Shown: positions 1-64,000 of the stretch, piece after piece | Numbering within the stretch: the stretch's first letter is position 1 | Layout: each line of letters opens with the position of its first letter | Assembly (NCBI GenBank): GCA_034190875.2 | Contig: JAXDRA010000384.1 | Span: forward strand, 1 to 64,000 | DNA: 64,000 nt | Origin: Urechis unicinctus | Lineage: Eukaryota; Annelida; Polychaeta; Xenopneusta; Urechidae | Direction: 5' to 3' | Notes under the pieces: generated by a model | Told to the model about the DNA's origin: nothing | What the model saw: only the letters and a program-made list of their open reading frames with translations | Databases searched by the model: none | Program-made: the position numbers and the translations under genes

Positions 1-737
1 AGTTCGCTATATTGACATCTCAGTCCGCTTTATATAAAGTTCGCTACGCTGACATCATTGTCCTCTGTATATAGAGTTCTCTACATTAACATCTCAGTCG
101 GCTGTACATGATGTTCGCTACGGTGACATCATAGTCGGCTGTACATAGAGTTCGCTACACTAACATCATCGTCCGCAGTATATAGAGTTCGCTACACAGA
201 TATTATCGTCCGCTGTATATAGAGTTTACATTGACATCTCAGTCAGATGTATAGAGAGTTCGCTAATCTGACATCATCGTCCGCTGTATATAGAGTTCAC
301 TACATTGACATTTCAGTCAGTTGTATATAGAGTTCGTTACAATGACATCATCGTCCGCTGTATGTAGAGTTCACCACGCTGACATCATCATGCGCTGTAT
401 ATAGAGTTCACTACGCAGCATTTCAGTCAGCTGCATATAGAGTACAATACGTTGACATCATCGTCCGCTGTACATAGAGTTCGCTACACTGACATCATCG
501 TGCGCTTTATATAATGTTCACTACAATGACATCATCGTCCGCTTTATATAGAGTTCACTACATTAACATCTCAGTCAGCTGTATATAAAGTCGAAACGCT
601 AACATTATCGTCCGCTGTTTATAGAGTTCGCTACACTGACATCATCGTCCGCTGTATTTAGAGTACACAACGTTGACATTTCAGAAAGCTGTATATAAAG
701 TTTGCTACACTGACATCATCGTCCGCTGTATATAGAG

Positions 738-774
738 TTCGCTACACTGACATCATCGTCCGCTGTATATAGAG
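738..774 (+). repeat. Class A monomer exemplar (37 bp)
   Basis: This is an exact copy of the commonest class A monomer. Landmarks are TTCGCTACAC at the left, TGACATCATCG across the junction with the core, CCGCTG, and TATATAGAG at the right. Class A is the more abundant class: in the well-preserved R4 unit it accounts for 21 of 34 monomers. Common A variants carry CTAACATCATC, CTGATATCATC (an EcoRV-type GATATC), CGTGCGCTG or CGTCTGCTG, and these variants mark fixed positions inside the HORs. Confidence 0.95.
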
Positions 775-959
775 TACACAACGTTGACATTTCAGAAAGC
801 TGTATATAGAGTTCACTACAATGACATCATCGTCCGCTTTATATAGAGTTCACTACATTGACATCTCAGTCAGCTGTATATGAAGTTCGCTACGCTGACA
901 TCATCGTCCGCTGTATATAGAGTTCGCTACACTGACATCATCGTCCGCTGTATATAGAG

Positions 960-1480
960 TACACAACGTTGACACATTCAGAAAGCTGTATATAAAGTTT
1001 GCTACACTGACATCATCGTCCGCTGTATATAGAGTTCACTACATAGACATCTCAGTCAGCTGTATATGGAGTTCACTACGCTGATATCATTGTAAGCGCT
1101 GTATATAGAGTTCGCTACTACGCTGATATCATATTCCGCTCTATATAGAGTTCACTACATTGACATCTCAGTCAGCTTTATATAAAGTTCGCTACACTAA
1201 CATCATCGTCCGCTGTTGATCGAGTTCCCTACACTGACATCATGTCCGCTGCATATAGAGTACACTATACGTTGATATTTCAGTCAGCTGTATATATAGT
1301 TCGCTACACTGACATCATCGTCCGCTTTATGTAGAGTTCACCACACACTGACATCATCGTGTGCTGTATATAGAGTTCACTACGCAGACATCTCAGTCCA
1401 GCTGTATATAGAGTACACTCTACGATGACATCATCGTCCGCTGCATATAGAGTTCGCTACAACTGACATCATAGTGCGCT
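960..1480 (+). repeat. Microindel-rich stretch within R1 copy a
   Basis: Compared with the aligned part of R1 copy b (about 4430-4940), this stretch has many extra 1-3 base pieces that repeat their neighbours: TGTAAGCGCTG against TGTAAGCTG, GCTACTACGCTG against GCTACGCTG, CACCACACACTG against CACCACACTG, TACACTCTACG against TACACTACG, GCTACAACTGAC against GCTACACTGAC. The net excess, about 13 bp, accounts for the 3,474 versus 3,461 difference in period. This could be replication slippage or sequencing and consensus error. Confidence 0.8.
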
Positions 1481-1574
1481 GTATAAAATGTTCACTACAC
1501 TGACATCATCGTCCGCTGTATATAGAGTTCACTACATTGACATCTCAGTCAGCTGTATATGAAGTTCGCTACGC

Positions 1575-1582
1575 TGACGTCA
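1575..1582 (+). promoter_or_regulatory. TGACGTCA palindrome (CRE-type bZIP site sequence), recurrent
   Basis: One class A monomer per R1 or R3 unit carries TGACGTCA, the palindrome bound by CREB/ATF-type bZIP proteins in animals, fungi and plants. Other class A monomers have TGACATCA, one base away. Exact copies start at 1575, 5036, 20663, 33763, 35885, 38010, 39148, 41526, 43575 and 46857. The motif is seen directly. Binding or any regulatory role is only inference, since an 8-bp match in a satellite may be coincidental. Confidence 0.35.
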
Positions 1583-1601
1583 TCGTCCGCTGTATATAGA
1601 G

Positions 1602-1635
1602 TTTACATTGACATCTCAGTCAGCTGTATAGATAG
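1602..1635 (+). repeat. 34-bp short class B monomer (exemplar)
   Basis: This B-class monomer starts TTTACATTGAC instead of TTCACTACATTGAC, a net loss of 3 bp at the left end, giving 34 bp. The same short form recurs at fixed places in every HOR type, often ending TATAGAGAG or TATAGATAG. It occurs three times in the R4 unit. Its presence explains why HOR lengths and deletion sizes are sums of 37 and 34 rather than multiples of 37. Confidence 0.9.
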
Positions 1636-2221
1636 TTCGCTAATCTGACATCATCGTCCGCTGTATATAGAGTTCACTACATTGACATTTCAGTCAGCTG
1701 TATATAGAGTTCGCTACACTAACATCATCGTCCGCTGTATATAGAGTTTACATTGACATCTCAGTCACCTGTATATAGAGTTCGCTACACTGATATCATC
1801 GTGCGCTTTATATAATGTTCACTACAATGACATCATCGTCCGCTTTATATAGAGTTCACTACATTAACATCTCAGTCAGCTGTATATAAAGTTCGAAACG
1901 CTAACATTATCGTCCGCTGTTTATAGAGTTTGCTACCCCGACATCATCGTCCGCTGTATTTAGAGATCACTACATTGACATCTCAGTCAGCTGTATATGG
2001 AGTTCGCTACGCTGACATCATCGTCCGCTGTAAATAGAGTTCGCTACACTAACATCATCGTCCGTTGTATATACAGTTCACTACATTGACATCTCAGTCA
2101 GCTGTATATGAAGTTCGCAACGCTGACATCATTGTCCGCTGTATATAGAGTTTACATTGACATTTCAGTCAGCTGTATATAGAGTACACTACGTTGACAT
2201 CATCGTCTGCTGTATGCAGAG

Positions 2222-2258
2222 TTCACTTTATTCACATAATTGTCAGCCGTATATTGAC
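2222..2258 (+). repeat. Most divergent monomer, a position marker of R1 and R3
   Basis: This 37-bp monomer contains TTCACATAATTGTCAGCC and ends TATATTGAC, unlike any other class, while keeping the array register. The next monomer starts TACGCTACACTGACATTATAG. The TTCACATAAT string recurs once per R1 or R3 unit, starting at 2231, 5693, 21346, 28184 (with an extra AC), 34422, 36541, 38666, 39767, 42185, 44232, 47509, 49867 and 54432. It does not occur in R2 or R4. Its spacing gives the R3 period directly (2,119 and 2,125 bp between 34422, 36541 and 38666). Confidence 0.92.
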
Positions 2259-3474
2259 TACGCTACACTGACATTATAGTCAGCTGTATATAAAGTTCGC
2301 TGAATTGACATCATTGCCAGCTGTATATAGAGTTCGCTACACTAACATGATCGTCCGCTGTTGATCGAGTTCCCTACACTGACATCATCGTCCGCTGTAT
2401 ATAGAGTACCCTACGTTGATATTTCAGTCAGCTGTATATATAGTTCGCTACACTGACATCATCGTCCGCTTTATGTAGAGTTCACCACACTGACATCATC
2501 GTGTGCTGTATATAGAGTTCACTACGCAGACATCTTAGTCAGCTGTATATAGAATACACTAGGTTGACATCATCGTCCGCTGTATATAGAGATCGCTACA
2601 CTGACATCATCGTGCGCTGTATAAAATGTTCACTACACTGACATCATCGTCCGCTGTATATAGAGTTTACTACATTGACATCTCAGTCAGCTGTATATGA
2701 AGTTCGCTACGCTGACTTCATCGTCCGCTGTATTTAGAGTTTGCATTGACATCTCAGTCAGCTGTATAGAGAGTTCGCTAATCTGACATCATCGTCCGCT
2801 GTATATAGAGTTCACTACATTGACATTTCAGTCAGCTGTATATATAGTGCGCTACACTAACATCATCGTCCGCTGTATATAGAGTTTACATTGACATCTC
2901 AGTCAGCTGTATATGGAGTTCGCTACACTGATATCATCGTCCGCTGTATATAGAGTTCGCTACATTGACATCAGTAAGCTGTATAAGAGTTCGCTACATA
3001 TGCTACGCTGACATCATCGTGCGCTGTATATAGAGTTCACTACACTGACATCATCGTGCGCTGTATATAGAGTTCACTACATTGACATCTTAGTCAGCTG
3101 TATATAAAGTTCGCTACACTAGCATCATCGTCCGCTGTTGATCGAGTTCCCTACACTGACATCATCGTCCGCTGTATATAGAGTACCCTACGTTGATATT
3201 TCAGTTAGCTGTATATATAGTTCGCTACACTGACATCATCGTCCGCTTTATGTAGAGTTCACCACACTGACATCATCGTCCGCTGTATATAGAGTTTACA
3301 TTGACATCTCAGTCAGCTGTATAGAGAGTTCGCTAATCTGACATCATCGTCCGCTGTATATAGAGTTCGCTACATTGACATCTCAGTAAGCTGTATATAG
3401 AGTTCGCTACACTAACATCATCGTCTGCTGTACGTAGAGTTCGCTATACTGACATCATAGTCCGCTGAATATAG

Positions 3475-6420
3475 AGTTCGCTATATTGACATCTCAGTCC
3501 GCTTTATATAAAGTTCGCTACGCTGACATCATTGTCCTCTGTATATAGAGTTCTCTACATTAACATCTCAGTCGGCTGTACATGATGTTCGCTACGCTGA
3601 CATCATAGTCGGCTGTACATAGAGTTCGCTACACTAACATCATCGTCCGCAGTATATAGAGTTCGCTACACAGATATTATCGTCCGCTGTATATAGAGTT
3701 TACATTGACATCTCAGTCAGATGTATAGAGAGTTCGCTAATCTGACATCATCGTCCGCTGTATATAGAGTTCACTACATTGACATTTCAGTCAGTTGTAT
3801 ATAGAGTTCGTTACAATGACATCATCGTCCGCTGTATGTAGAGTTCACCACGCTGACATCATCATGCGCTGTATATAGAGTTCACTACGCAGCATTTCAG
3901 TCAGCTGCATATAGAGTACAATACGTTGACATCATCGTCCGCTGTACATAGAGTTCGCTACACTGACATCATCGTGCGCTTTATATAATGTTCACTACAA
4001 TGACATCATCGTCCGCTTTATATAGAGTTCACTACATTAACATCTCAGTCAGCTGTATATAAAGTCGAAACGCTAACATTATCGTCCGCTGTTTATAGAG
4101 TTCGCTACACTGACATCATCGTCCGCTGTATTTAGAGTACACAACGTTGACATTTCAGAAAGCTGTATATAAAGTTTGCTACACTGACATCATCGTCCGC
4201 TGTATATAGAGTTCGCTACACTGACATCATCGTCCGCTGTATATAGAGTACACAACGTTGACATTTCAGAAAGCTGTATATAGAGTTCACTACAATGACA
4301 TCATCGTCCGCTTTATATAGAGTTCACTACATAGACATCTCAGTCAGCTGTATATGAAGTTCGCTACGCTGACATCATCGTCCGCTGTATATAGAGTTCG
4401 CTACACTGACATCATCGTCCGCTGTATATAGAGTACACAACGTTGACATTTCAGAAAGCTGTATATAAAGTTTGCTACACTGACATCATCGTCCGCTGTA
4501 TATAGAGTTCACTACATAGACATCTCAGTCAGCTGTATATGGAGTTCACTACGCTGATATCATTGTAAGCTGTATATAGAGTTCGCTACGCTGATATCAT
4601 ATTCCGCTCTATATAGAGTTCACTACATTGACATCTCAGTCAGCTTTATATAAAGTTCGCTACACTAACATCATCGTCCGCTGTTGATCGAGTTCCCTAC
4701 ACTGACATCATTGTCCGCTGCATATAGAGTACCATACGTTGATATTTCAGTCAGCTGTATATATAGTTCGCTACACTGACATCATCGTCCGCTTTATGTA
4801 GAGTTCACCACACTGACATCATCGTGTGCTGTTTATAGAGTTCACTACGCAGATATCTCAGTCATCTGTATATAGAGTACACTACGATGACATCATCGTC
4901 CGCTGCATATAGAGTTCGCTACACTGACATCATAGTGCGCTGTATAAAATGTTCACTACACTGACATCATCGTCCGCTGTATATAGAGTTCACTACATTG
5001 ACATCTCAGTCAGCTGTATATGAAGTTCGCTACGCTGACGTCATCGTCCGCTGTATATAGAGTTTACATTGACATCTCAGTCAGCTGTATAGATAGTTCG
5101 CTAATCTGACATCATCGTCCGCTGTATATAGAGTTCACTACATTGACATTTCAGTCAGCTGTATATAGAGTTCGCTACACTAACATCATCGTCCGCTGTA
5201 TATAGAGTTTACATTGACATCTCAGTCACCTGTATATAGAGTTCGCTACACTGATATCATCGTGCGCTTTATATAATGTTCACTACAATGACATCATCGT
5301 CCGCTTTATATAGAGTTCACTACATTAACATCTCAGTCAGCTGTATATAAAGTTCGAAACGCTAACATTATCGTCCGCTGTTTATAGAGTTTGCTACCCC
5401 GACATCATCGTCCGCTGTATTTAGAGATCACTACATTGACATCTCAGTCAGCTGTATATGGAGTTCGCTACGCTGACATCATCGTCCGCTGTAAATAGAG
5501 TTCGCTACACTAACATCATCGTCCGTTGTATATACAGTTCACTACATTGACATCTCAGTCAGCTGTATATGAAGTTCGCAACGCTGACATCATTGTCCGC
5601 TGTATATAGAGTTTACATTGACATTTCAGTCAGCTGTATATAGAGTACACTACGTTTGACATCATCGTCTGCTGTATGCAGAGTTCACTTTATTCACATA
5701 ATTGTCAGCCGTATATTGACTACGCTACACTGACATTATAGTCAGCTGTATATAAAGTTCGCTGAATTGACATCATTGCCAGCTGTATATAGAGTTCGCT
5801 ACACTAACATGATCGTCCGCTGTTGATCGAGTTCCCTACACTGACATCATCGTCCGCTGTATATAGAGTACCCTACGTTGATATTTCAGTCAGCTGTATA
5901 TATAGTTCGCTACACTGACATCATCGTCCGCTTTATTAGAGTTCACCACACTGACATCATCGTGTGCTGTATATAGAGTTCACTACGCAGACATCTCAGT
6001 CAGCTGTATATAGAATACACTAGGTTGACATCATCGTCCGCTGTATATAGAGATCGCTACACTGACATCATCGTGCGCTGTATAAAATGTTCACTACACT
6101 GACATCATCGTCCGCTGTATATAGAGTTTACTACATTGACATCTCAGTCAGCTGTATATGAAGTTCGCTACGCTGACTTCATCGTCCGCTGTATTTAGAG
6201 TTTTGCATTGACATCTCAGTCAGCTGTATAGAGAGTTCGCTAATCTGACATCATCGTCCGCTGTATATAGAGTTCACTACATTGACATTTCAGTCAGCTG
6301 TATATATAGTGCGCTACACTAACATCATCGTCCGCTGTATATAGAGTTTACATTGACATCTCAGTCAGCTGTATATAGAGTTCGCTACACTGATATCATC
6401 GTCCGCTGTATATAGAGTTC
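3475..6420 (+). repeat. R1 higher-order repeat, copy b, truncated
   Basis: This copy follows copy a closely, with landmarks in the same order: TGACGTCA at 5036, TTGCTACCCC at 5391, the TTCACATAAT monomer at 5693 and ACTAGGTTG at 6019. It breaks off at about 6420, where regular monomers give way to disordered ones (ACTAAGCTGTATATAG). It lacks the microindels found at 960-1480 in copy a, so it is the better reference for the R1 unit. Confidence 0.88.
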
Positions 6421-7200
6421 GCTACACTAAGCTGTATATAGAGTTCGCATCATCGTCCGCGCTGTATATAGAGTTCACTACATTGACATCATCAGTCAGC
6501 TGTATATAGAGTTACTACATTGACATTTCAGCTGTATATTCTACACTGACATCATCGTCCGCTGTATATAGAGTTCGCTACACTGACATCATCGTCCGCT
6601 GTATATTGAGTTCACTACATTGACATCTCAGTCAGCTATATATAGGAGTTCGCTACACTGACATCATCGTCCGCTGTATAGAGTTCCCTACACTGACATC
6701 ATCGTCCGCTGTATATAGAGTACCCTACATTGACATTTCAGTCAGCTGTATAGAGAGTTCGCTACACTGACATCATCGTCCGCTGTATATAGAGTTCACT
6801 ACATTGACATCATCGTCGCTGTATATAGAGTTCACTACATTGACATCATCAGTCAGCTGTATATAGAGTTATACATCATCGTCGCTGCGAATATAGAGTT
6901 CGCTACACTGACATCATCTCAGTCCGCTGTATATAGAGTTCGCTACACTGACATCATCGTCCAGCTGTATATAGAGTTCGCTACATTGACATCTCGTCCG
7001 CTGTATATAGAGTTCGCTACACTGACATCATCGTCCGCTGTATATAGAGTTCGCTACATTGACATCATCAGTCAGCTGTATATATAGTTCGCTACACTGA
7101 CATCATCGTCCGCTGTATGTAGAGTTCACTACACTGACATCATCAGTCCGCTGTATATAGAGTTCACTACGCTGACATCTCAGTCAGCTGTATAGGTTTC
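6421..7200 (+). repeat. Irregular satellite zone 1
   Basis: The 37-bp register is lost and regained several times here. Monomers are truncated (TTCAGCTGTATATTCTACAC near 6530), carry extra bases (GTCCGCGCTG near 6455), or combine halves of class A and class B (CATCATCAGTCAGCTG near 6485, 6845 and 7065). The diagnostic variants of R1 are mostly absent and plain consensus monomers dominate. R1-type sequence resumes with ACTAGGTTG at 7201. This is either a degenerate block or a poorly resolved piece of assembly. Confidence 0.75.
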
Positions 7201-8160
7201 ACTAGGTTGACATCATCGTCCGCTGTATATAGAGTTCGCTACACTGACATCATCGTGCGCTGTATAAAATGTTCACTACACTGACATCATCGTCCGCTGT
7301 ATATAGAGTTTACTACATTGACATCTCAGTCAGCTGTATATGAAGTTCGCTACGCTGACATCATCGTCCGCTGTATGTAGAGTTTTACATTGACATCTCA
7401 GTCAGATGTATAGAGAGTTCGCTAATCTGACATCATCGTCCGCTGTATATAGAGTTCACTACATTGACATTTCAGTCAGCTGTATATAGAGTGCGCTACA
7501 CTAACATCATCGTCCGCTGTATATAGAGTTTTACATTGACATCTCAGTCAGCTGTATATGGAGTTCGCTACACTGACATCATCGTCCGCTGTATATAGAG
7601 TTCGCTACATTGACATCTCAGTAAGCTGTATATAGAGTTCGCTACGCTACATCATGTCCGCTCATATGAAGTTAGCTACGCTGACATCATCGTGCGCTGT
7701 ATATAGAGTTCACTACACTGACATCATCGTGCGCTGTATATAGAGTTCACTACATTGACATCTTAGTCAGCTGTATATAAAGTTCGCTACACTAGCATCA
7801 TCGTCCGCTGTTGATCGAGTTCCCTACACTGACATCATCGTCCGCTGTATATAGAGTACCCTACGTTGATATTTCAGTTAGCTGTATATATAGTTCGCTA
7901 CACTGACATCATCGTCCGCTTTATGTAGAGTTCACCACACTGACATCATCGTCCGCTGTATATAGAGTTTACATTGACATCTCAGTCAGCTGTATAGAGA
8001 GTTCGCTAATCTGACATCATCGTCCGCTGTATATAGAGTTCGCTACATTGACATCTCAGTAAGCTGTATATAGAGTTCGCTACACTAACATCATCGTCTG
8101 CTGTACGTAGAGTTCGCTATACTGACATCATAGTCCGCTGAATATAGAGTTCGCTATATT
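7201..8160 (+). repeat. R1 3' segment, additional partial copy
   Basis: This block matches the R1 end segment starting at 2558 (copy a) and 6019 (copy b), with the same ACTAGGTTG, TATAAAATGTTC, GACTTCATCG-region and short B monomers in order. It includes a distinctive monomer at about 7641-7674 ending CTCATATGAAG, a possible longer form of the 23-bp monomer. It leads without a break into the 404-bp tandem duplication. Confidence 0.8.
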
Positions 8161-8564
8161 GACATCTTAGTCAGCTGTATATAAAGTTCGCTACACTAGC
8201 ATCATCGTCCGCTGTTGATCGAGTTCCCTACACTGACATCATCGTCCGCTGTATATAGAGTACCCTACGTTGATATTTCAGTTAGCTGTATATATAGTTC
8301 GCTACACTGACATCATCGTCCGCTTTATGTAGAGTTCACCACACTGACATCTTCGTCCGCTGTATATAGAGTTTACATTGACATCTCAGTCAGCTGTATA
8401 GAGAGTTCGCTAATCTGACATCATCGTCCGCTGTATATAGAGTTCGCTACATTGACATCTCAGTAAGCTGTATATAGAGTTCGCTACACTAACATCATCG
8501 TCTGCTGTACGTAGAGTTCGCTATACTGACATCATAGTCCGCTGAATATAGAGTTCGCTATATT
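7757..8564 (+). repeat. 404-bp tandem duplication (7757-8160 and 8161-8564)
   Basis: GACATCTTAGTCAGC begins at 7757 and again at 8161, and both copies then run through the same GTTGATCGAG, GATATTTCAGTTAGC and TCTGCTGTACG monomers. The unit is 404 bp, equal to ten 37-bp monomers plus one 34-bp monomer. The join sits inside a class B monomer: TTCGCTATATTGACATC, normally followed by TCAGTCC, is followed by TTAGTCAGC at 8161. Copy 2 has a CATCTTCG variant that later recurs in R2 near 11540, 14080 and 17270. Confidence 0.9.
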
Positions 8565-11500
8565 GACATCTCAGTCCGCTTTATATAAAGTTCGCTACGC
8601 TGACATCATTGTCCTCTGTATATAGAGTTCTCTACATTAACATCTCAGTCGGCTGTACATGATGTTCGCTACGCTGACATCATAGTCGGCTGTACATAGA
8701 GTTCGCTACACTAACATCATCGTCCGCAGTATATAGATTTCGCTACACAGATATTATCGTCCGCTGTATATAGAGTTTACATTGACATCTCAGTCAGATG
8801 TATAGAGAGTTCGCTAATCTGACATCATCGTCCGCTGTATATAGAGTTCACTACATTGACATTTCAGTCAGTTGTATATAGAGTTCGCTACAATGACATC
8901 ATCGTCCGCTGTATGTAGAGTTCACCACGCTGACATCATCATGCGCTGTATATAGAGTTCACTACGCAGCATCTCAGTCAGCTGTATATAGAGTACAATA
9001 CGTTGACATCATCGTCCGCTGTATATAGAGTTCGCTGCACTGACATCATCGTGCGCTTTATATAATGTTCACTACAATGACATCATCGTCCGCTTTAAAT
9101 AGAGTTCACTACATTAACATCTCAGTCAGCTGTATATAAAGTCGAAACGCTAACATTATCGTCCGCTGTTTATAGAGTTCGCTACACTGACATCATCGTG
9201 CGCTGTATATAAATGTTCACTACACTGACATCATCGTCCGCTGTATATAGAGTTTACTACATTGACATCTCAGTCAGCTGTATATGAAGTTCGCTACGCT
9301 GACTTCATCGTCCGCTGTATTTAGAGTTTACATTGACATCTCAGTCAGCTGTATAGAGTTCGCTAATCTGACATCATCGTCCGCTGTATATAGAGTTCAC
9401 TACATTGACATTTCAGTCAGCTGTATATATAGTGCGCTACACTAACATCATCGTCCGCTGTATATAGAGTTTACATTGACATCTCAGTCAGCTGTATATG
9501 GAGTTCGCTACACTGACATCATCGTCCGCTGTATATAGAGTTCACTACATTGACATCTCAGTCAGCTGTATATGAAGTTCGCTACGCTGACTTCATCGTC
9601 CGCTGTGTTTAGAGTTTACATTGACATCTCAGTCAGCTGTATAGAGAGTTCGCTAATCTGACATCATCGTCCGATGTATATAGAGTTCACTACATTGACA
9701 TTTCAGTCAGCTGTATATATAGTGCGCTACATTAACATCATCGTCCGCTGTATATAGAGTTTACATTGACATCTCAGTCAGCTGTATATGGAGTTCGCTA
9801 CACTGATATCATCGTCCGCTGTATATAGAGTTCGCTACATTGACATCTCAGTAAGCTGTATATAGAGTTCGCTACATTGATCATATGAAGTTAGCTACGC
9901 TGACATCATCGTGCGCTGTATATAGAGTTCACTACACTGACATCATCGTGCGCTGTATATAGAGTTCACTACATTGACATCTTAGTCAGCTGTATATAAA
10001 GTTCGCTACACTAGCATCATCGTCCGCTGTTGATCGAGTTCCCTACACTGACATCATCGTCCGCTGTATATAGAGTACCCTACGTTGATATTTCAGTTAG
10101 CTGTATATATAGTTCGCTACACTGACATCATCGTCCGCTTTATGTAGAGTTCACCACACTGACATCATCGTCCGCTGTATATAGAGTTTACATTGACATC
10201 TCAGTCAGCTGTATAGAGAGTTCGCTAATCTGACATCATCGTCCGCTGTATATAGAGTTCGCTACATTGACATCTCAGTAAGCTGTATATAGAGTTCGCT
10301 ACACTAACATCATCGTCTGCTGTATGTAGAGTTCGCTATACTGACATCATCGTCCGCTGAATATAGAGTTCGCTATATTGACATCTCAGTCCGCTTTATA
10401 TAAGTTCGCTACGCTGACATCATTGTCCTCTGTATATAGAGTTCTCTACATTAACAACTCAGTCGGCTGTACATGAAGTTCGCTACGCTGACATCATAGT
10501 CGGCTGTACATAGAGTTCGCTACACTAACATCATCTACCGCAGTATATAGAGTTCGCTACACAGATATTATCGTCCGCTGTATATAGAGTTTACATTGAC
10601 ATCTCAGTCAGATGTATAGAGAGTTCGCTAATCTGACATCATCGTCCGCTGTATATAGAGATCACTACATTGACATCTCAGTCAGCTGTATATGAAGTTC
10701 GCTACGCTGACATTATCGTCCGCTGTATCTTGAGTTCACTACACTGACATCATCGTGTGCTGTATATAGAGTTCACTACGCAGACAGCTCAGTCAGCTGT
10801 ATATAGAATACACTAGGTTGACATCATCGTCCGCTGTATATAGAGATCGCTACACTGACATCATCGTGCGCTGTATAAAATGTTCACTACACTGACATCA
10901 TCGTCCGCTGTATATAGAGTTTACTACATTGACATCTCAGTCAGCTGTATATGAAGTTCGCTACGCTGACTTCATCGTCCGCTGTATTTAGAGTTTGCAT
11001 TGACATCTCAGTCAGCTGTATAGAGAGTTCGCTAATCTGACATCATCGTCCGCTGTATATAGAGTTCACTACATTGACATTTCAGTCAGCTGTATATATA
11101 GTGCGCTACACTAACATCATCGTCCGCTGTATATAGAGTCTACATTGACATCTCAGTCAGCTGTATATGGAGTTCGCTACACTGATATCATCGTCCGCTG
11201 TATATAGAGTTCGCTACATTGACATCTCAGTAAGCTCTATATAGAGTTCGCGACATTGATCATATGAAGTTAGCTACGCTGACATCATCGTGCGCTGTAT
11301 ATAGAGTTCACTACACTGACATCATCGTGCGCTGTATATAGAGTTCACTACATTGACATCTTAGTCAGCTGTATATAAAGTTCGCTACACTAGCATCATC
11401 GTCCGCTGTTGATCGAGTTCCCTACACTGACATCATCGTCCGCTGTATATAGAGTACCCTACGTTGATATTTCAGTTAGCTGTATATATAGTTCGCTACA

Positions 11501-11745
11501 CTGACATCATCGTCCGCTTTATGTAGAGTTCACCACACTGACATCTTCGTCCGCTGTATATAGAGTTTACATTGACATCTCAGTCAGCTGTATAGAGAGT
11601 TCGCTAATCTGACATCATCGTCCGCTGTATATAGAGTTCGCTACATTGACATCTCAGTAAGCTGTATATAGAGTTCGCTACACTAACATCATCGTCTACT
11701 GTACGTAGAGTTCGCTATACTGACATCATAGTCCGCTGAATATAG
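8552..11745 (+). repeat. R2 higher-order repeat, copy a (3,194 bp)
   Basis: R2 is defined by the block TTCGCTATATTGACATCTCAG followed by CCGCTTTATATAAAG, which occurs twice per unit. In this copy the blocks begin at 8552 and 10367, and the next unit begins at 11746. The first block is followed by GTACATGATG and the second by AACAACTCAG and GTACATGAAG, so the two halves (1,815 and 1,379 bp) are related but distinguishable. The unit holds two 23-bp TGATCATATG monomers (near 9868 and 11247). Confidence 0.92.
9868..9890 (+). repeat. Truncated 23-bp monomer with TGATCATATGAAG
   Basis: This monomer has lost about 14 bp of core: TTCGCTACATTGA is joined to TCATATGAAG. It is always followed by a monomer starting TTAGCTACGC. 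The same 23-bp form recurs near 11257, 13073, 13791, 15606, 16985, 18803, 22118, 24008, 28848, 35196, 37320, 40539, 42886, 48286 and 50640, so it was fixed before R2, the mosaic and R3 amplified. A longer 34-bp relative at about 7641-7674 keeps part of the missing core and could be an intermediate or a consensus artefact. Confidence 0.88.
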
Positions 11746-14278
11746 AGTTCGCTATATTGACATCTCAGTCCGCTTTATATAAAGTTCGCTACGCTGACAT
11801 CATTGTCCTCTGTATATAGAGTTCTCTACATTAACATCTCTGTCGGCTGTACATGATGTTCGCTACGCTGACATCATAGTCGGCTGTACATAGAGTTCGC
11901 TACACTAACATCATCGTCCGCAGTATATAGAGTTCGCTACACAGATATTATCGTCCGCTGTATGTAGAGTTTACATTGACATCTCAGTCAGATGTATAGA
12001 GAGTTCGCTAATCTGACATCATCGTCCGCTGTATATAGAGTTCACTACATTGACATTTCAGTCAGTTGTATATAGAGTTCGCTACAATGACATCATCGTC
12101 CGCTGTATGTAGAGTTCACCACGCTGACATCATCATGCGCTGTATATAGAGTTCACTACGCAGCATCTCAGTCAGCTGTATATAGAGTACAATACGTTGA
12201 CATCATCGTCCGCTGTACATAGAGTTCGCTGCACTGACATCATCGTGCGCTTTATATAATGTTCACTACAATGACATCATCGTCCGCTTTAAATAGAGTT
12301 CACTACATTAACATCTCAGTCAGCTGTATATAAAGTCGAAACGCTAACATTATCGTCCGCTGTTTATAGAGTTCGCTACACTGACATCATCGTGCGCTGT
12401 ATAAAATGTTCACTACACTGACATCATCGTCCGCTGTATATAGAGTTTACTACATTGACATCTCAGTCAGCTGTATATGAAGTTCGCTACGCTGACTTCA
12501 TCGTCCGCTGTATTTAGAGTTTACATTGACATCTCAGTCAGCTGTATAGAGAGTTCGCTAATCTGACATCATCGTCCGCTGTATATAGAGTTCACTACAT
12601 TGACATTTCAGTCAGCTGTATATATAGTGCGCTACACTAACATCATCGTCCGCTGTATATAGAGTTTACATTGACATCTCAGTCAGCTGTATATGGAGTT
12701 CGCTACACTGACATCATCGTCCGCTGTATATAGAGTTCACTACATTGACATCTCAGTCAGCTGTATATGAAGTTCGCTACGCTGACTTCATCGTCCGCTG
12801 TGTTTAGAGTTTACATTGACATCTCAGTCAGCTGTATAGAGAGTTCGCTAATCTGACATCATCGTCCGCTGTATATAGAGTTCACTACATTGACATTTCA
12901 GTCAGCTGTATATATAGTGCGCTACATTAACATCATCGTCCGCTGTATATAGAGTTTACATTGACATCTCAGTCAGCTGTATATGGAGTTCCCTACACTG
13001 ATATCATCGTCCGCTGTATATAGAGTTCGCTACATTGACATCTCAGTAAGCTGTATATAGAGTTCGCTACATTGATCATATGAAGTTAGCTACGCTGACA
13101 TCATCGTGCGCTGTATATAAAGTTCACTACACTGACATCATCGTGCGCTGTATATAGAGTTCACTACATTGACATCTTAGTCAGCTGTATATAAAGTTCG
13201 CTACACTAGCATCATCGTCCGCTGTTGATCGAGTTCCCTACACTGACATCATCGTCCGCTGTATATAGAGTACCCTACGTTGATATTTCAGTTAGCTGTA
13301 TATATAGTTCGCTACACTGACATCATCGTCCGCTTTATGTAGAGTTCACCACACTGACATCATCGTCCGCTGTATATAGAGTTTACATTGACATCTCAGT
13401 CAGCTGTATAGAGAGTTCGCTAATCTGACATCATCGTCCGCTGTATATAGAGTTTACTACATTGACATCTCAGTCAGCTGTATATGAAGTTCGCTACGCT
13501 GACTTCATCGTCCGCTGTATTTAGAGTTTGCATTGACATCTCAGTCAGCTGTATAGAGAGTTCGCTAATCTGACATCATCGTCCGCTGTATATAGAGTTC
13601 ACTACATTGACATTTCAGTCAGCTGTATATATAATTCGCTACACTAACATCATCGTCCGCTGTATATAGAGTCTACATTGACATCTCAGTCAGCTGTATA
13701 TGGAGTTCGCTACACTGATATCATCGTCCGCTGTATATAGAGTTCGCTACATTGACATCTCAGTAAGCTCTATATAGAGTTCGCGACATTGATCATATGA
13801 AGTTAGCTACGCTGACATCATCGTGCGCTGTATATAGAGTTCACTACACTGACATCATCGTGCGCTGTATATAGAGTTCACTACATTGACATCTTAGTCA
13901 GCTGTATATAAAGTTCGCTACACTAGCATCATCGTCCGCTGTTGATCGAGTTCCCTACACTGACATCATCGTCCGCTGTATATAGAGTACCCTACGTTGA
14001 TATTTCAGTTAGCTGTATATATAGTTCGCTACACTGACATCATCGTCCGCTTTATGTAGAGTTCACCACACTGACATCTTCGTCCGCTGTATATAGAGTT
14101 TACATTGACATCTCAGTCAGCTGTATAGAGAGTTCGCTAATCTGACATCATCGTCCGCTGTATATAGAGTTCGCTACATTGACATCTCAGTAAGCTGTAT
14201 ATAGAGTTCGCTACACTAACATCATCGTCTGCTGTACGTAGAGTTCGCTATACTGACATCATAGTCCGCTGAATATAG
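11746..14278 (+). repeat. R2 copy b with a 663-bp internal deletion
   Basis: This copy is 2,533 bp against 3,194-3,196 bp for its neighbours. The missing part corresponds to about 10249-10911 of copy a and contains the second anchor block. At about 13450 the sequence passes from the monomer after GCTAATCTGAC straight into TTTACTACATTG, which in copy a lies 663 bp further on. The loss equals seventeen 37-bp monomers plus one 34-bp monomer, so register is kept. It shares the AACATCTCTGTCGG variant with copy c. Confidence 0.92.
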
Positions 14279-17200
14279 AGTTCGCTATATTGACATCTCA
14301 GTCCGCTTTATATAAAGTTCGCTACGCTGACATCATTGTCCTCTGTATATAGAGTTCTCTACATTAACATCTCTGTCGGCTGTACATGATGTTCGCTACG
14401 CTGACATCATAGTCGGCTGTACATAGAGTTCGCTACACTAACATCATCGTCCGCAGTATATAGAGTTCGCTACACAGATATTATCGTCCGCTGTATATAG
14501 AGTTTACATTGACATCTCAGTCAGATGTATAGAGAGTTCGCTAATCTGACATCATCGTCCGCTGTATATAGAGTTCACTACATTGACATTTCAGTCAGTT
14601 GTATATAGAGTTCGCTACAATGACATCATCGTCCGCTGTATGTAGAGTTCACCACGCTGACATCATCATGCGCTGTATATAGAGTTCACTACGCAGCATC
14701 TCAGTCAGCTGTATATAGAGTACAATACGTTGACATCATCGTCCGCTGTACATAGAGTTCGCTGCACTGACATCATCGTGCGCTTTATATAATGTTCACT
14801 ACAATGACATCATCGTCCGTTTTAAATAGAGTTCACTACATTAACATCTCAGTCAGCTGTATATAAAGTCGAAACGCTAACATTATCGTCCGCTGTTTAT
14901 AGAGTTCGCTACACTGACATCATCGTGCGCTGTATAAAATGTTCACTACACTGACATCATCGTCCGCTGTATATAGAGTTTACTACATTGACATCTCAGT
15001 CAGCTGTATATGAAGTTCGCTACGCTGACTTCATCGTCCGCTGTATTTAGAGTTTACATTGACATCTCAGTCAGCTGTATAGAGAGTTCGCTAATCTGAC
15101 ATCATCGTCCGCTGTATATAGAGTTCACTACATTGACATTTCAGTCAGCTGTATATATAGTGCGCTACACTAACATCATCGTCCGCTGTATATAGAGTTT
15201 ACATTGACATCTCAGTCAGCTGTATATGGAGTTCGCTACACTGACATCATCGTCCGCTGTATATAGAGTTCACTACATTGACATCTCAGTCAGCTGTATA
15301 TGAAGTTCGCTACGCTGACTTCATCGTCCGCTGTGTTTAGAGTTTACATTGACATCTCAGTCAGCTGTATAGAGAGTTCGCTAATCTGACATCATCGTCC
15401 GCTGTATATAGAGTTCACTACATTGACATTTCAGTCAGCTGTATATATAGTGCGCTACATTAACATCATCGTCCGCTGTATATAGAGTTTACATTGACAT
15501 CTCAGTCAGCTGTATATGGAGTTCCCTACACTGATATCATCGTCCGCTGTATATAGAGTTCGCTACATTGACATCTCAGTAAGCTGTATATAGAGTTCGC
15601 TACATTGATCATATGAAGTTAGCTACGCTGACATCATCGTGCGCTGTATATAGAGTTCACTACACTGACATCATCGTGCGCTGTATATAGAGTTCACTAC
15701 ATTGACATCTTAGTCAGCTGTATATAAAGTTCGCTACACTAGCATCATCGTCCGCTGTTGATCGAGTTCCCTACACTGACATCATCGTCCGCTGTATATA
15801 GAGTACCCTACGTTGATATTTCAGTTAGCTGTATATATAGTTCGCTACACTGACATCATCGTCCGCTTTATGTAGAGTTCACCACACTGACATCATCGTC
15901 CGCTGTATATAGAGTTTACATTGACATCTCAGTCAGCTGTATAGAGAGTTCGCTAATCTGACATCATCGTCCGCTGTATATAGAGTTCGCTACATTGACA
16001 TCTCAGTAAGCTGTATATAGAGTTCGCTACACTAACATCATCGTCTGCTGTATGTAGAGTTCGCTATACTGACATCATCGTCCGCTGAATATAGAGTTCG
16101 CTATATTGACATCTCAGTCCGCTTTATATAAAGTTCGCTACGCTGACATCATTGTCCTCTGTATATAGAGTTCTCTACATTAACAACTCAGTCGGCTGTA
16201 CATGAAGTTCGCTACGCTGACATCATAGTCGGCTGTACATAGAGTTCGCTACACTAACATCATCGTCCGCAGTATATAGAGTTCGCTACACAGATATTAT
16301 CGTCCGCTGTATATAGAGTTTACATTGACATCTCAGTCAGATGTATAGAGAGTTCGCTAATCTGACATCATCGTCCGCTGTATATAGAGATCACTACATT
16401 GACATCTCAGTCAGCTGTATATGAAGTTCGCTACGCTGACATTATCGTCCGCTGTATCTTGAGTTCACTACACTGACATCATCGTGTGCTGTATATAGAG
16501 TTCACTACGCAGACATCTCAGTCAGCTGTATATAGAATACACTAGGTTGACATCATCGTCCGCTGTATATAGAGATCGCTACACTGACATCATCGTGCGC
16601 TGTATAAATGTTCACTACACTGACATCATCGTCCGCTGTATATAGAGTTTACTACATTGACATCTCAGTCAGCTGTATATGAAGTTCGCTACGCTGACTT
16701 CATCGTCCGCTGTATTTAGAGTTTGCATTGACATCTCAGTCAGCTGTATAGAGAGTTCGCTAATCTGACATCATCGTCCGCTGTATATAGAGTTCACTAC
16801 ATTGACATTTCAGTCAGCTGTATATATAGTGCGCTACACTAACATCATCGTCCGCTGTATATAGAGTCTACATTGACATCTCAGTCAGCTGTATATGGAG
16901 TTCGCTACACTGATATCATCGTCCGCTGTATATAGAGTTCGCTACATTGACATCTCAGTAAGCTCTATATAGAGTTCGCTACATTGATCATATGAAGTTA
17001 GCTACGCTGACATCATCGTGCGCTGTATATAGAGTTCAATACACTGACATCATCGTGCGCTGTATATAGAGTTCACTACATTGACATCTTAGTCAGCTGT
17101 ATATAAAGTTCGCTACACTAGCATCATCGTCCGCTGTTGATCGAGTTCCCTACACTGACATCATCGTCCGCTGTATATAGAGTACCCTACGTTGATATTT

Positions 17201-17474
17201 CAGTTAGCTGTATATATAGTTCGCTACACTGACATCATCGTCCGCTTTATGTAGAGTTCACCACACTGACATCTTCGTCCGCTGTATATAGAGTTTTACA
17301 TTGACATCTCAGTCAGCTGTATAGAGAGTTCGCTAATCTGACATCATCGTCCGCTGTATATAGAGTTCGCTACATTGACATCTCAGTAAGCTGTATATAG
17401 AGTTCGCTACACTAACATCATCGTCTGCTGTACGTAGAGTTCGCTATACTGACATCATAGTCCGCTGAATATAG
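14279..17474 (+). repeat. R2 copy c (3,196 bp, complete)
   Basis: This is a full R2 unit with anchor blocks at 14279 and 16095 (spacing 1,816 bp) and the next unit at 17475 (1,380 bp later). The first half carries AACATCTCTGTCGG with GTACATGATG, and the second carries AACAACTCAG with GTACATGAAG, as in copy a. Length agrees with copy a to within 2 bp. Confidence 0.93.
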
Positions 17475-40732: not shown

Positions 40733-41028
40733 GGAGTTCACTACGCTGATATCATTGTCAGCTGTATATAGAGTTCGCTACGCTGATATCATCGTGCGCT
40801 TTATATAATGTTCACTACAATGACATCATCGTCCGCTTTATATAGAGTTCACTACATTGACATCTCAGTCAGCTGTATATGAATTTCGCTACACTGACAT
40901 CATCGTCCGCTGTATATAGAGTACACAACGTTGACATTTCAGAAAGCTGTATATAAAGTTTGCTACACTGACATCATCGTCCGCTGTATATAGAGTTCAC
41001 TACATAGACATCTCAGTCAGCTGTATAT
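40733..41028 (+). repeat. 296-bp junction restarting the R3 array
   Basis: Eight monomers separate two GGAGTTCACTACGCTG landmarks (40733 and 41029). At about 40790, GATATCAT, usually followed by ATTCCGC, is followed by CGTGCGCTTTATATAATG, and the sequence then copies 33030 onward, including TATGAATTTCGC (AATTTCGC at 40882 against 33121, offset 7,761). This is the left join of a large duplication. Confidence 0.88.
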
Positions 41029-58114: not shown

Positions 58115-58523
58115 GAGTTTACATTGACATCTCAGTCAGATGTATAGAGAGAGTTTGCTAATCTGACATCATCGTCCGCTGTATATAGAGTTCACTACAT
58201 TGACATTTCAGTCAGTTGTATATAGAGTTCGCTACAATGACATCATCGTGCGCTGTATATAGAGTTCACTACGCAGACATCTCAGTCAGCTGTATATAGA
58301 ATACACTAGGTTGACATCATCGTCCGCTGTATATAGAGTTCGCTACACTGACATCATCGTGCGCTTTATATAATGTTCACTACAATGACATCATCGTCCG
58401 CTTTATATAGAGTTCACTACATTAACATCTCAGTCAGCTGTATATGAAGTTCGCTACGCTGACATCATCGTCCGCTGTTTATAGAGTTCGCTACACTGAC
58501 ATCATCGTCCGCTGTATATAGAG
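58115..58523 (+). repeat. R4 partial unit with an R1/R3-type intrusion
   Basis: R4 monomers 23-26 are followed near 58250-58310 by GCAGACATCTCAG and GAATACACTAGGTTG, monomers typical of R1 and R3, and then R4 monomers 30-34. This swap suggests exchange between R4 and an R1/R3-type array, or a consensus error next to the irregular zone. Confidence 0.78.
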
Positions 58524-59332
58524 TTCGAAACATTGACATCTCAGTCAGCTGTATATGGAGTTCGCTACACTAACATCATCGTCTGCTGTATGTAGAGTTC
58601 GCTATACTGACATCATCGTCCGCTGAATATAGAGTTCGCTATATTGACATCTCAGTCCGCTGTATATAAAGTTCGCTACGCTGACATCATTGTCCGCTGA
58701 ATATAGAGTTCTCTACATTAACGTCTCAGTCAGCTGTATATGAAGTTCGCTACGCTGACATTATCGTCCACTGTATATAGATTTTACATTGACATCTCAG
58801 TCAGCTGTATATAGAGTTCGCTACACTGATATCATCGTCCGCTGTATATAGAGTTCGCTACACTAACATGATCGTCCGCTGTATATAGAGTTTACATTGA
58901 CATCTCAGTCAGATGTATAGAGAGTTTGCTAATCTGACATCATCGTCCGCTGTATATAGAGTTCACTACATTGACATTTCAGTCAGTTGTATATAGAGTT
59001 CGCTACAATGACATCATCGTCCGCTGTATGTAGAGTTCACCACGCTGACATCATCATGCGCTGTATATAGAGTTCACTACGCAGCATCTCAGTCAGCTGT
59101 ATATAGAGTACAATACGTTGACATCATCGTCCGCTGTACATAGAGAGTTCGCTACACTGACATCATCGTGCGCTTTATATAATGTTCACTACAATGACAT
59201 CATCGTCCGCTTTATATAGAGTTCACTACATTAACATCTCAGTCAGCTGTATATGAAGTTCGCTACGCTGACATCATCGTCCGCTGTTTATAGAGTTCGC
59301 TACACTGACATCATCGTCCGCTGTATATAGAG
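58524..59332 (+). repeat. R4 short unit, second copy (809 bp; 807 plus a 2-bp insertion)
   Basis: It has the same composition and the same 10-to-23 monomer join as the unit at 52490. A 2-bp insertion (CATAGAGAGTTCGC near 59142) makes 809. It directly precedes three long R4 units, so long and short forms sit side by side. Confidence 0.93.
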
Positions 59333-60582
59333 TTCGAAACATTGACATCTCAGTCAGCTGTATATGGAGTTCGCTACACTAACATCATCGTCTGCTGTAT
59401 GTAGAGTTCGCTATACTGACATCATCGTCCGCTGAATATAGAGTTCGCTATATTGACATCTCAGTCCGCTGTATATAAAGTTCGCTACACGCTGACATCA
59501 TTGTCCGCTGAATATAGAGTTCTCTACATTAACGTCTCAGTCAGCTGTATATGAAGTTCGCTACGCTGACATTATCGTCCGCTGTATATAGATTTTACAT
59601 TGACATCTCAGTCAGCTGTATATAGAGTTCGCTACACTGATATCATCGTCCGCTGTATATAGAGTTCGCTACACTAACATGATCGTCCGCTGTATAAAGA
59701 GTTTACATTGACATCTCAGTCAGCTGTATATAGAGTTCGCTACACTGATATCATCGTCCGCTGTATACAGAGTTCGCTACATTGACATTTCAGTAAGCTG
59801 TATATGAAGTTCGCTACGCTGACCTCATAGTCGGCTGTACATAGAGTTCGCTACACTAACATCATCGTCCGCTGTATATAGAGTTCGCTACATTGACATC
59901 TCAGTAAGCTGTATATAGAGTTCGCTATATTAAGATCATCGTCTGCTGTACGTAGAGTTCGCTATACTGACATCATCGTCCGCTGAATATAGAGTTAGCT
60001 AAATTGACATCTCAGTCCGCTGTATATAAAGTTCGCTACGCTGACATCAATGTCCGCTGTATATAGAGTTCTCTACATTAACATCTCAGTCGGCTGTATA
60101 TGAAGTTCGCTACGCTGACATCATCGTCCGCTGTATATAGAGTTTACATTGACATCTCAGTCAGATGTATAGAGAGTTTGCTAATCTGACATCATCGTCC
60201 GCTGTATATAGAGTTCACTACATTGACATTTCAGTCAGTTGTATATAGAGTTCGCTACAATGACATCATCGTCCGCTGTATGTAGAGTTCACCACGCTGA
60301 CATCATCATGCGCTGTATATAGAGTTCACTACGCAGCATCTCAGTCAGCTGTATATAGAGTACAATACGTTGACATCATCGTCCGCTGTACATAGAGTTC
60401 GCTACACTGACATCATCGTGCGCTTTATATAATGTTCACTACAATGACATCATCGTCCGCTTTATATAGAGTTCACTACATTAACATCTCAGTCAGCTGT
60501 ATATGAAGTTCGCTACGCTGACATCATCGTCCGCTGTTTATAGAGTTCGCTACACTGACATCATCGTCCGCTGTATATAGAG
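59333..60582 (+). repeat. R4 long unit 1 (34 monomers, 1,250 bp)
   Basis: The unit runs from TTCGAAACAT to the next. It has 34 monomers: thirty of 37 bp, three of 34 bp and one of 36 bp, giving a base length of 1,248. A 2-bp insertion (CTACACGCTG near 59487) makes 1,250. A substitution occurs at GACCTCATAG near 59823. Class order is BAA BA BA BAA BA BAA BAA BA BA BA BAA BAAA BAA. Confidence 0.95.
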
Positions 60583-61833
60583 TTCGAAACATTGACATCT
60601 CAGTCAGCTGTATATGGAGTTCGCTACACTAACATCATCGTCTGCTGTATGTAGAGTTCGCTATACTGACATCATCGTCCGCTGAATATAGAGTTCGCTA
60701 TATTGACATCTCAGTCCGCTGTATATAAAGTTCGCTACGCTGACATCATTGTCCGCTGAATATAGAGTTCTCTACATTAACGTCTCAGTCAGCTGTATAT
60801 GAAGTTCGCTACGCTGACATTATCGTCCGCTGTATATAGATTTTACATTGACATCTCAGTCAGCTGTATATAGAGTTCGCTACACTGATATCATCGTCCG
60901 CTGTATATAGAGTTCGCTACACTAACATGATCGTCCGCTGTATAAAGAGTTTTACATTGACATCTCAGTCAGCTGTATATAGAGTTCGCGCTACACTGAT
61001 ATCATCGTCCGCTGTATACAGAGTTCGCTACATTGACATTTCAGTAAGCTGTATATGAAGTTCGCTACGCTGACATCATAGTCGGCTGTACATAGAGTTC
61101 GCTACACTAACATCATCGTCCGCTGTATATAGAGTTCGCTACATTGACATCTCAGTAAGCTGTATATAGAGTTCGCTATATTAAGATCATCGTCTGCTGT
61201 ACGTAGAGTTCGCTATACTGACATCATCGTCCGCTGAATATAGAGTTAGCTAAATTGACATCTCAGTCCGCTGTATATAAAGTTCGCTACGCTGACATCA
61301 ATGTCCGCTGTATATAGAGTTCTCTACATTAACATCTCAGTCGGCTGTATATGAAGTTCGCTACGCTGACATCATCGTCCGCTGTATATAGAGTTTACAT
61401 TGACATCTCAGTCAGATGTATAGAGAGTTTGCTAATCTGACATCATCGTCCGCTGTATATAGAGTTCACTACATTGACATTTCAGTCAGTTGTATATAGA
61501 GTTCGCTACAATGACATCATCGTCCGCTGTATGTAGAGTTCACCACGCTGACATCATCATGCGCTGTATATAGAGTTCACTACGCAGCATCTCAGTCAGC
61601 TGTATATAGAGTACAATACGTTGACATCATCGTCCGCTGTACATAGAGTTCGCTACACTGACATCATCGTGCGCTTTATATAATGTTCACTACAATGACA
61701 TCATCGTCCGCTTTATATAGAGTTCACTACATTAACATCTCAGTCAGCTGTATATGAAGTTCGCTACGCTGACATCATCGTCCGCTGTTTATAGAGTTCG
61801 CTACACTGACATCATCGTCCGCTGTATATAGAG
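60583..61833 (+). repeat. R4 long unit 2 (1,251 bp)
   Basis: The 34-monomer order is the same. An extra T (GAGTTTTACATTG near 60950) and an extra GC (TTCGCGCTACAC near 60988) explain 1,251 rather than 1,248. Monomers 1-8 (from 60583) resemble monomers 16-23 (from 61135) one for one, which reveals an older 15-monomer duplication inside the unit. Confidence 0.95.
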
Positions 61834-63082
61834 TTCGAAACATTGACATCTCAGTCAGCTGTATATGGAGTTCGCTACACTAACATCATCGTCTGCTGTA
61901 TGTAGAGTTCGCTATACTGACATCATCGTCCGCTGAATATAGAGTTCGCTATATTGACATCTCAGTCCGCTGTATATAAAGTTCGCTACGCTGACATCAT
62001 TGTCCGCTGAATATAGAGTTCTCTACATTAACGTCTCAGTCAGCTGTATATGAAGTTCGCTACGCTGACATTATCGTCCGCTGTATATAGATTTTTACAT
62101 TGACATCTCAGTCAGCTGTATATAGAGTTCGCTACACTGATATCATCGTCCGCTGTATATAGAGTTCGCTACACTAACATGATCGTCCGCTGTATAAAGA
62201 GTTTACATTGACATCTCAGTCAGCTGTATATAGAGTTCGCTACACTGATATCATCGTCCGCTGTATACAGAGTTCGCTACATTGACATTTCAGTAAGCTG
62301 TATATGAAGTTCGCTACGCTGACATCATAGTCGGCTGTACATAGAGTTCGCTACACTAACATCATCGTCCGCTGTATATAGAGTTCGCTACATTGACATC
62401 TCAGTAAGCTGTATATAGAGTTCGCTATATTAAGATCATCGTCTGCTGTACGTAGAGTTCGCTATACTGACATCATCGTCCGCTGAATATAGAGTTAGCT
62501 AAATTGACATCTCAGTCCGCTGTATATAAAGTTCGCTACGCTGACATCAATGTCCGCTGTATATAGAGTTCTCTACATTAACATCTCAGTCGGCTGTATA
62601 TGAAGTTCGCTACGCTGACATCATCGTCCGCTGTATATAGAGTTTACATTGACATCTCAGTCAGATGTATAGAGAGTTTGCTAATCTGACATCATCGTCC
62701 GCTGTATATAGAGTTCACTACATTGACATTTCAGTCAGTTGTATATATAGTTCGCTACAATGACATCATCGTCCGCTGTATGTAGAGTTCACCACGCTGA
62801 CATCATCATGCGCTGTATATAGAGTTCACTACGCAGCATCTCAGTCAGCTGTATATAGAGTACAATACGTTGACATCATCGTCCGCTGTACATAGAGTTC
62901 GCTACACTGACATCATCGTGCGCTTTATATAATGTTCACTACAATGACATCATCGTCCGCTTTATATAGAGTTCACTACATTAACATCTCAGTCAGCTGT
63001 ATATGAAGTTCGCTACGCTGACATCATCGTCCGCTGTTTATAGAGTTCGCTACACTGACATCATCGTCCGCTGTATATAGAG
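61834..63082 (+). repeat. R4 long unit 3 (1,249 bp)
   Basis: The 34-monomer order is the same. One extra T in GATTTTTACATTG near 62092 explains 1,249. Another difference noted is a substitution giving GTATATATAGTTCG near 62745. Otherwise it reads the same as units 1 and 2, so these are among the youngest repeats in the window. Confidence 0.95.
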
Positions 63083-64000
63083 TTCGAAACATTGACATCT
63101 CAGTCAGCTGTATATGGAGTTCGCTACACTAACATCATCGTCTGCTGTATGTAGAGTTCGCTATACTGACATCATCGTCCGCTGAATATAGAGTTCGCTA
63201 TATTGACATCTCAGTCCGCTGTATATAAAGTTCGCTACGCTGACATCATTGTCCGCTGAATATAGAGTTCTCTACATTAACGTCTCAGTCAGCTGTATAT
63301 GAAGTTCGCTACGCTGACATTATCGTCCGCTGTATATAGATTTTACATTGACATCTCAGTCAGCTGTATATAGAGTTCGCTACACTGATATCATCGTCCG
63401 CTGTATATAGAGTTCGCTACACTAACATGATCGTCCGCTGTATAAAGAGTTTACATTGACATCTCAGTCAGCTGTATATAGAGTTCGCTACACTGATATC
63501 ATCGTCCGCTGTATACAGAGTTCGCTACATTGACATTTCAGTAAGCTGTATATGAAGTTCGCTACGCTGACATCATAGTCGGCTGTACATAGAGTTCGCT
63601 ACACTAACATCATCGTCCGCTGTATATAGAGTTCGCTACATTGACATCTCAGTAAGCTGTATATAGAGTTCGCTATATTAAGATCATCGTCTGCTGTACG
63701 TAGAGTTCGCTATACTGACATCATCGTCCGCTGAATATAGAGTTAGCTAAATTGACATCTCAGTCCGCTGTATATAAAGTTCGCTACGCTGACATCAATG
63801 TCCGCTGTATATAGAGTTCTCTACATTAACATCTCAGTCGGCTGTATATGAAGTTCGCTACGCTGACATCATCGTCCGCTGTATATAGAGTTTACATTGA
63901 CATCTCAGTCAGATGTATAGAGAGTTTGCTAATCTGACATCATCGTCCGCTGTATATAGAGTTCACTACATTGACATTTCAGTCAGTTGTATATAGAGTT
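63083..64000 (+). repeat. R4 long unit 4, cut by the window end
   Basis: The unit starts with TTCGAAACAT at 63083 and follows the long-form order, including monomers 11-22, up to monomer 25 at the last base. The R4 array therefore continues beyond the window. Confidence 0.95.

Follow-up and report, generated by a model that had tools for sequence, protein, structure and literature searches.

Can a repeat unit of only 37 bp be built into large higher-order repeats (HORs), and is an array of this kind a centromeric satellite? The question is raised by a contig of the annelid Urechis unicinctus (C257; 64,569 bp), of which bases 1-64000 were analysed (the window, 64,000 bp). TRF detected one array that fills the window (1-64000, forward strand), with a period of 37 bp (1,729 copies) and also a period of 111. 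Decomposition yielded 1,749 monomers with 448 distinct sequences; 1,404 of the monomers are exactly 37 bp and 140 are 34 bp long. On average, the monomers are 87.8% identical to the consensus AGTTCGCTACACTGACATCATCGTCCGCTGTATATAG and 80.3% identical to one another. They are arranged head-to-tail throughout, the window contains neither unique DNA nor N bases, and the lack of any minus-strand self-match within it shows that there is a single orientation. The array begins at the contig start, and the final 569 bp of the contig consist of the same repeat, which places the contig end (64,569) inside the array. Both TRF and the decomposition thus bear out the first-pass annotation in its description of an uninterrupted array of 37-bp monomers across the whole 64 kb. 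Long, head-to-tail, non-coding arrays are what is expected of satellite DNA. Coding potential was rejected (the longest stop-free stretch in the window has 117 codons, compared to 216 in one base-shuffled window), and the window gave no Rfam matches at gathering scores. A 29-mer had no exact matches in viral contigs.

The best local lags in the window include 94, 88, 58 and 34 monomers (about 3,474, 3,196, 2,125 and 1,250 bp), and further lags of 31, 38, 50, 52, 56, 64, 70, 77, 89, 91, 96, 108 and other numbers of monomers were found. When block pairs were counted at an identity of at least 97% and at lags of 3-199 monomers, 177 pairs spanned 85.6% of the window monomers. This is far more than chance would produce, since no block pairs at this identity were left after the monomers had been put into random order, in each of three trials. 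At positions 1-6426 (forward strand, as are all blocks described here), a block of 94 monomers (R1; 3,474 bp) is followed by a partial second copy, 1-2952 being 98.7-99.1% identical to 3475-6426. In a gapped match, 1-2964 corresponds to 3475-6426 (about 1.85 copies, 99.1%). A near-duplication of 158 monomers (about 5.7 kb) at 8111-19179 comprises 1.93 copies that are 99.2% identical over the aligned part, and it encloses R2 (88 monomers, 3,196 bp; 1.7-1.8 copies) as well as nested lags of 38, 50 and 70 monomers. The tandem block R3 (58 monomers, about 2,126 bp) at 33196-38950 is present in 2.7 copies at the 97% cut. Over a fixed step, its second copy is 98.6% and its incomplete third copy 95.9% identical, and about 3.3 copies are reached in a gapped match at 95.2%. 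Finally, the tandem block R4 (34 monomers, about 1,250 bp) at 58852-63996 is present in at least 4.1 copies. Compared at fixed steps of 1,250 bp, these copies are 98.9-99.0% identical; compared monomer by monomer, they are 99.2-99.9% identical.

HORs are expected to consist of tandem blocks that are far more alike than their constituent monomers, and this was observed for R3 and R4 (95.9-99.0% versus 80%). They are also expected to repeat one block regularly over most of the array. Instead, many lags coexist, and the lags of 34, 58 and 70 monomers cover parts of the window. Two full copies at the 97% cut were found only for lags of 70 (2.03), 58 (2.71) and 34 (4.12; also seen as 68), and more than 2.5 copies only for the 58-mer (2.7) and the 34-mer (at least 4.1). 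Because few lags reach two full copies and many different lags occur, the window is a mosaic of nested duplications rather than a set of four clean HOR types. Four HOR types of about 94, 87, 57 and 34 monomers had been proposed from the sequence at first sight; the sizes are real (94, 88, 58 and 34), but they do not form four regular HOR arrays.

It could be argued that the blocks arose mostly during assembly, from repeats that were joined wrongly or duplicated artificially in this contig of 64 kb. Indeed, the window belongs to a small separate contig outside the scaffolds, four contigs have lengths of exactly 10,000, 10,000, 20,000 and 30,000, and two arrays on scaffold C9 adjoin N gaps. However, the first 400 bp of the window recur several times at 99% identity inside two other contigs (C492 and C676), and the block copies are not identical but differ by up to about 1%. 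We therefore consider this explanation improbable.

The 37-bp satellite is also found far beyond this contig. In the assembly (1.19 Gb, 926 contigs, 17 chromosome-scale scaffolds C1-C17 of 43.8-90.8 Mb), the exact 28-mer GACATCATCGTCCGCTGTATATAGAGTT occurs 6,292 times, 195 times in the window, and its reversed control does not occur. Scaled from the 28-mer density, the satellite amounts to 2.1 Mb (density of the window) to 2.8 Mb (density of ten other stretches), which is about 0.2% of the assembly. At least six of the 17 large scaffolds carry copies (C4, C5, C8, C9, C11 and C17); for scaffolds after C5 this is known from searches other than that with the 28-mer. Thus, the array is neither confined to a single locus nor short in the genome, and the presence of many copies, spread over several sites in the genome, is again typical of satellite DNA. 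Together with the block structure, the 28-mer count also upholds the view of a large HOR-like satellite in many copies. An exact 74-mer has 79 copies in the genome, of which one each lies on C5, C8 and C11, two on C17, 15 on C9 and 59 on 30 other contigs (that of the window included). The contigs above C17 together make up about 22.4 Mb (1.9% of the assembly). Among them, the 198-kb contig C857 was satellite in all six stretches sampled, one of which, at the contig start, is degraded.

On C5, arrays lie at 53.4, 64.95 and 65.23 Mb of a scaffold of 65.29 Mb; on C9, they lie at 0.08-0.11, 0.335-0.41 and 7.15 Mb and are scattered from 18.9 to 20.45 Mb, and the points sampled at 0.15-0.30 and 19.0-19.7 Mb are not satellite. 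Two of the C5 arrays (64.95 and 65.23 Mb), the C8 array at 0.15 Mb and two of the C9 arrays (0.08-0.11 and 0.335-0.41 Mb) are near scaffold ends, and the others are internal. The two C9 end stretches begin or end with no obvious telomere repeat. Since two C9 arrays adjoin N gaps, a scaffolding error is possible. As to other sequences of the assembly, no match to COX1 was found, and a haemocyanin model had no hit, a weak negative given that it had none in the controls either. A 53-residue myosin exon was most similar to Myosin-7 entries, with molluscan entries ranking lower, and does not point to a single phylum.

This distribution bears on the suggestion of the first-pass annotation that the array is a candidate major satellite, possibly centromeric. 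The array could be a CENH3-binding satellite either of the whole animal or of C9 alone, as suggested by its HOR-like structure, the cluster of scattered arrays at 18.9-20.45 Mb of C9, the location on C9 of 15 of the 20 exact 74-mer copies on large scaffolds, the N gaps next to two C9 arrays and the 59 of 79 74-mer copies on other contigs. However, C5 and C9 bear arrays at several distant sites, where a centromeric satellite would be expected at one major site on every chromosome, and no copy was seen on C1-C3 among the 28-mer matches listed, which are ordered by contig, begin with C4 and end within C5. Furthermore, one C5 array runs into ordinary sequence without a gap, and an amount of about 0.2% of the assembly is modest. 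In the oyster Crassostrea gigas, CENH3 ChIP reportedly revealed no centromere-specific repeat, even though FISH signals of the commonest satellite are centromeric on several chromosomes (PMC8268682). The reading as a universal centromeric satellite is therefore unsupported, and we regard a centromeric role, be it in the whole animal or on C9 alone, as unlikely. Because 59 of the 79 74-mer copies sit outside the 17 large scaffolds, centromeres may be absent from the scaffolds. Structural or neutral heterochromatin would be the most likely cellular role of the arrays.

What is new in the 37-bp satellite is an ordering rule between two types of unit. The monomers fall into two classes, each with variants: class B carries CATCTCAGTCAGC (GTCAGC core) and class A carries CATCATCGTCCGC (GTCCGC core). 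B monomers account for 566 of the 1,749 monomers in the window, and two of them are neighbours (BB) only once, versus 183 expected pairs; if the class rule is written in a second way, there are 446 B monomers and two BB pairs. In 15 other groups of sampled arrays (from C4, C5, C8, C9, C11, C17 and other contigs), BB pairs sum up to 8 versus about 335 expected, most of the larger groups having been chosen for their resemblance to the window and thus not being independent. Among 318 monomers in small samples from C4, C5, C8, C11 and C17, there is no BB pair, versus 16.4 expected. The rule is not absolute, as exceptions occur in C201 (5 versus 16.1 expected) and in small samples of unplaced contigs (2 versus 7.2); a single pair was found in C403 (1 versus 33.3). 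Upon removal of duplicates, a single BB pair was left among 740 distinct neighbour pairs, where 63 would be expected; among 373 type pairs, there were two, compared to an expectation of 31. The persistence of the rule among non-duplicated pairs also argues against an assembly artefact as the source of the block structure.

How could the two classes be kept in this order? In a small simulation of unequal exchange, no BB pairs arose in any of 15 runs when exchange was allowed only between like monomers, whereas 10-188 BB pairs arose in 15 of 15 class-blind runs. Like-with-like unequal exchange is thus sufficient to keep the rule in this model, and selection would not be needed. The rule would be a natural outcome of a founder array without BB pairs, provided that exchange requires matching monomers. 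Alternatively, the rule may reflect selection for a protein-binding inverted repeat in class B whose copies have to keep a distance of no less than two monomers (74 bp). In the window, a perfect TGAC...GTCA pair is concentrated in class B (333 of 566 monomers, versus 54 of 1,183 in class A), 504 of the 565 B-B intervals in the window measure 2, 3 or 4 monomers, and the rule was also seen in samples from other chromosomes. On the other hand, no binding protein is known, the simulated exchange keeps the rule by itself, and unusually strong single-strand folding was found for neither the ancestral-type trimer (z -0.87) nor the B-A-B trimer (z 0.82). The class-A trimer, as single-stranded DNA, folds worse than all of 200 shuffles (z +3.63). 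Selection on the spacing of B monomers therefore has a low probability in our view. We give even less credence to a more far-reaching version, a two-letter satellite grammar in which those B monomers whose inverted-repeat arm is intact would be putative protein-binding boxes, their spacing (2-4 monomers, 74-148 bp) would be kept by selection, and the whole would be a convergent counterpart, on a 37-bp unit, of the spacing of CENP-B boxes in alpha satellite.

The array edges provide some information on which class came first. The array of contig C361 terminates near 138.5 kb, and its final 1.9 kb are degraded. At this edge, GTCAGC accounts for 94% of 36 cores, and 12 of the 14 full cores are TGACATCATAGTCAGC. 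The GTCAGC share is 40% of 213 cores in the remainder of the sampled C361 stretch and 34% of 1,326 cores in the window. Beyond the edge lies an old 33-bp repeat. Kinship between this degraded repeat and the 37-bp unit was rejected, since cyclic alignments were no better than those of shuffles (136-253 of 300 reached the score in four comparisons); an exact 31-mer of the guessed 33-bp consensus, a guess that may be wrong, had no matches. The edge composition offers a thin indication that the GTCAGC form is ancestral and that class A may have mostly lost the GTCA arm. The GTCAGC share of 43-50% in the small samples from C4, C5, C8, C11 and C17 favours this reading. By contrast, an exact ancestral-type 53-mer was found at just one place in the genome, on C8, and the one further edge that was counted, at the start of C857 (260 bp), has a single scorable core, which is of the type GTCTGC; both count against it.

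The arrays also differ from locus to locus. When samples of 800 bp were matched against the window, the 80 pieces of the window itself had best partners in the rest of the window with a median identity of 99.1%. For C492, C857, C676, C403, C361 and two C9 sites (0.38-0.40 and 19.85-19.88 Mb), the medians were 86.8-98.9% and the maxima 95.5-99.25%. Lower values were obtained for C440 (median 87.1, maximum 93.1), C201 (median 82.5, maximum 87.8), seven further contigs with one sample each (83.4-88.6%), the remaining C9 sites (80.7-89.9%) and the samples from C4, C5, C8, C11 and C17 (at most 88.4%); the samples C11:18.213 and C9:20.043 had no match of 600 bp. For some pieces of the window, the identity to stretches of C9 and to other contigs is 97-99%. 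The window thus shares a subfamily with two C9 sites and several small contigs but is not assignable to C9, and the samples from the five other chromosomes (C4, C5, C8, C11 and C17) represent other subfamilies.

We consider the following account of the 37-bp non-coding satellite as a whole to be probable. An ancestral monomer with a short inverted repeat (TGACATCATAGTCA) would have diverged into class A, with a GTCCGC core and a mostly lost inverted-repeat arm, and class B, with a GTCAGC core. Aligned monomers of like class would then have undergone unequal homologous exchange, by which blocks of about 30-160 monomers were duplicated again and again, and each locus would have acquired its own subfamily through local exchange. 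The events probably occurred in this order, and the engine was probably exchange and not a rolling-circle mechanism or another form of amplification.

The human alpha satellite, with monomers of 171 bp and locus-specific subfamilies, is one of the closest known systems. In both systems, tandem monomers have been multiplied in near-identical blocks, a short motif is borne by one of two monomer classes, and subfamilies are specific to a locus. In the human HOR dimer, one unit bears the CENP-B box (PMC8122249). By contrast, the unit described here has 37 bp, the blocks are irregular and nested, and few exceed two copies. Satellite arrays with similarly short monomers (44-50 bp) are present in Vicia faba, where they are reported to be centromeric by a study employing CenH3 ChIP-seq (PMC5895790), whereas the present array is known from its sequence. 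The satellitome of C. gigas has 52 members with monomers of 21-3,287 bp (PMC8268682). The oyster satellites resemble the 37-bp family in being low-abundance, scattered tandem repeats, some of them with monomers of tens of bp; however, the term "higher order" is absent from the main text of that paper (PMC8268682), and the arrays described here span at least 64 kb and contain large blocks. Minisatellites or VNTRs share the unit length and the mosaic of variant repeats, but their mean lengths of 0.5-30 kb (PMC8122249) are exceeded by the present arrays, as in the 198-kb contig C857 with satellite in all six sampled stretches. No description of a 37-bp satellite family of this kind was found in the partial literature searched by monomer letters and "37-bp" phrases. 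Judged from these sources, it looks like a novel satellite family of a familiar kind.

For the biology of satellites, the 37-bp family provides a well-resolved case in which the footprints of exchange are directly readable, and the near-absence of BB pairs discriminates like-with-like from class-blind exchange. It also illustrates that large HOR-like blocks can arise on a unit of 37 bp. If any of the arrays were centromeric, the satellite would be a source of a centromere probe for this animal.

Several contigs of the assembly have round-number sizes, namely C19 and C20 with 10,000 bp each, C21 with 20,000 bp and C201 with 30,000 bp, which suggests that cuts were introduced during scaffolding. 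The surroundings of other 37-bp arrays contain further tandem repeats. In contig C361, a strongly degraded 33-bp tandem repeat, with a unit of about TTCCATCTTATGACAGCTTTGTGGCTACATTGG, adjoins the 37-bp array (positions 4950-6100 of the stretch L023). The same degraded repeat is present near 37-bp arrays at two places of the chromosome-scale scaffold C9, at 19.825 Mb (L045) and at 20.200 Mb (L070). At a further place of this scaffold (C9:0.415-0.425 Mb; stretch L015), past a 37-bp array and its gap, long reading frames extend from position 176 to 4640 of the stretch, and they resemble those of a putative NACHT-type ATPase with WD40 repeats behind the ATPase part. Positions 4931-5214 of L015 hold 6.8 tandem copies of a 42-bp unit, with 88% matches between them.

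As single-stranded DNA, the consensus trimer of the class-A monomer, which carries the GTCCGC core, folded worse than all of 200 shuffled sequences (z +3.63).

The window contains 17 monomers of 23 bp as well as 12 occurrences of a 97-bp doublet, located at positions 9786, 11165, 13698, 16893, 22026, 23922, 28755, 35102, 37229, 40447, 42793 and 50547. Judged by length alone, the doublet fits two full monomers plus one 23-bp monomer. The recurrent doublet could possibly serve as a block marker of the array in the window.
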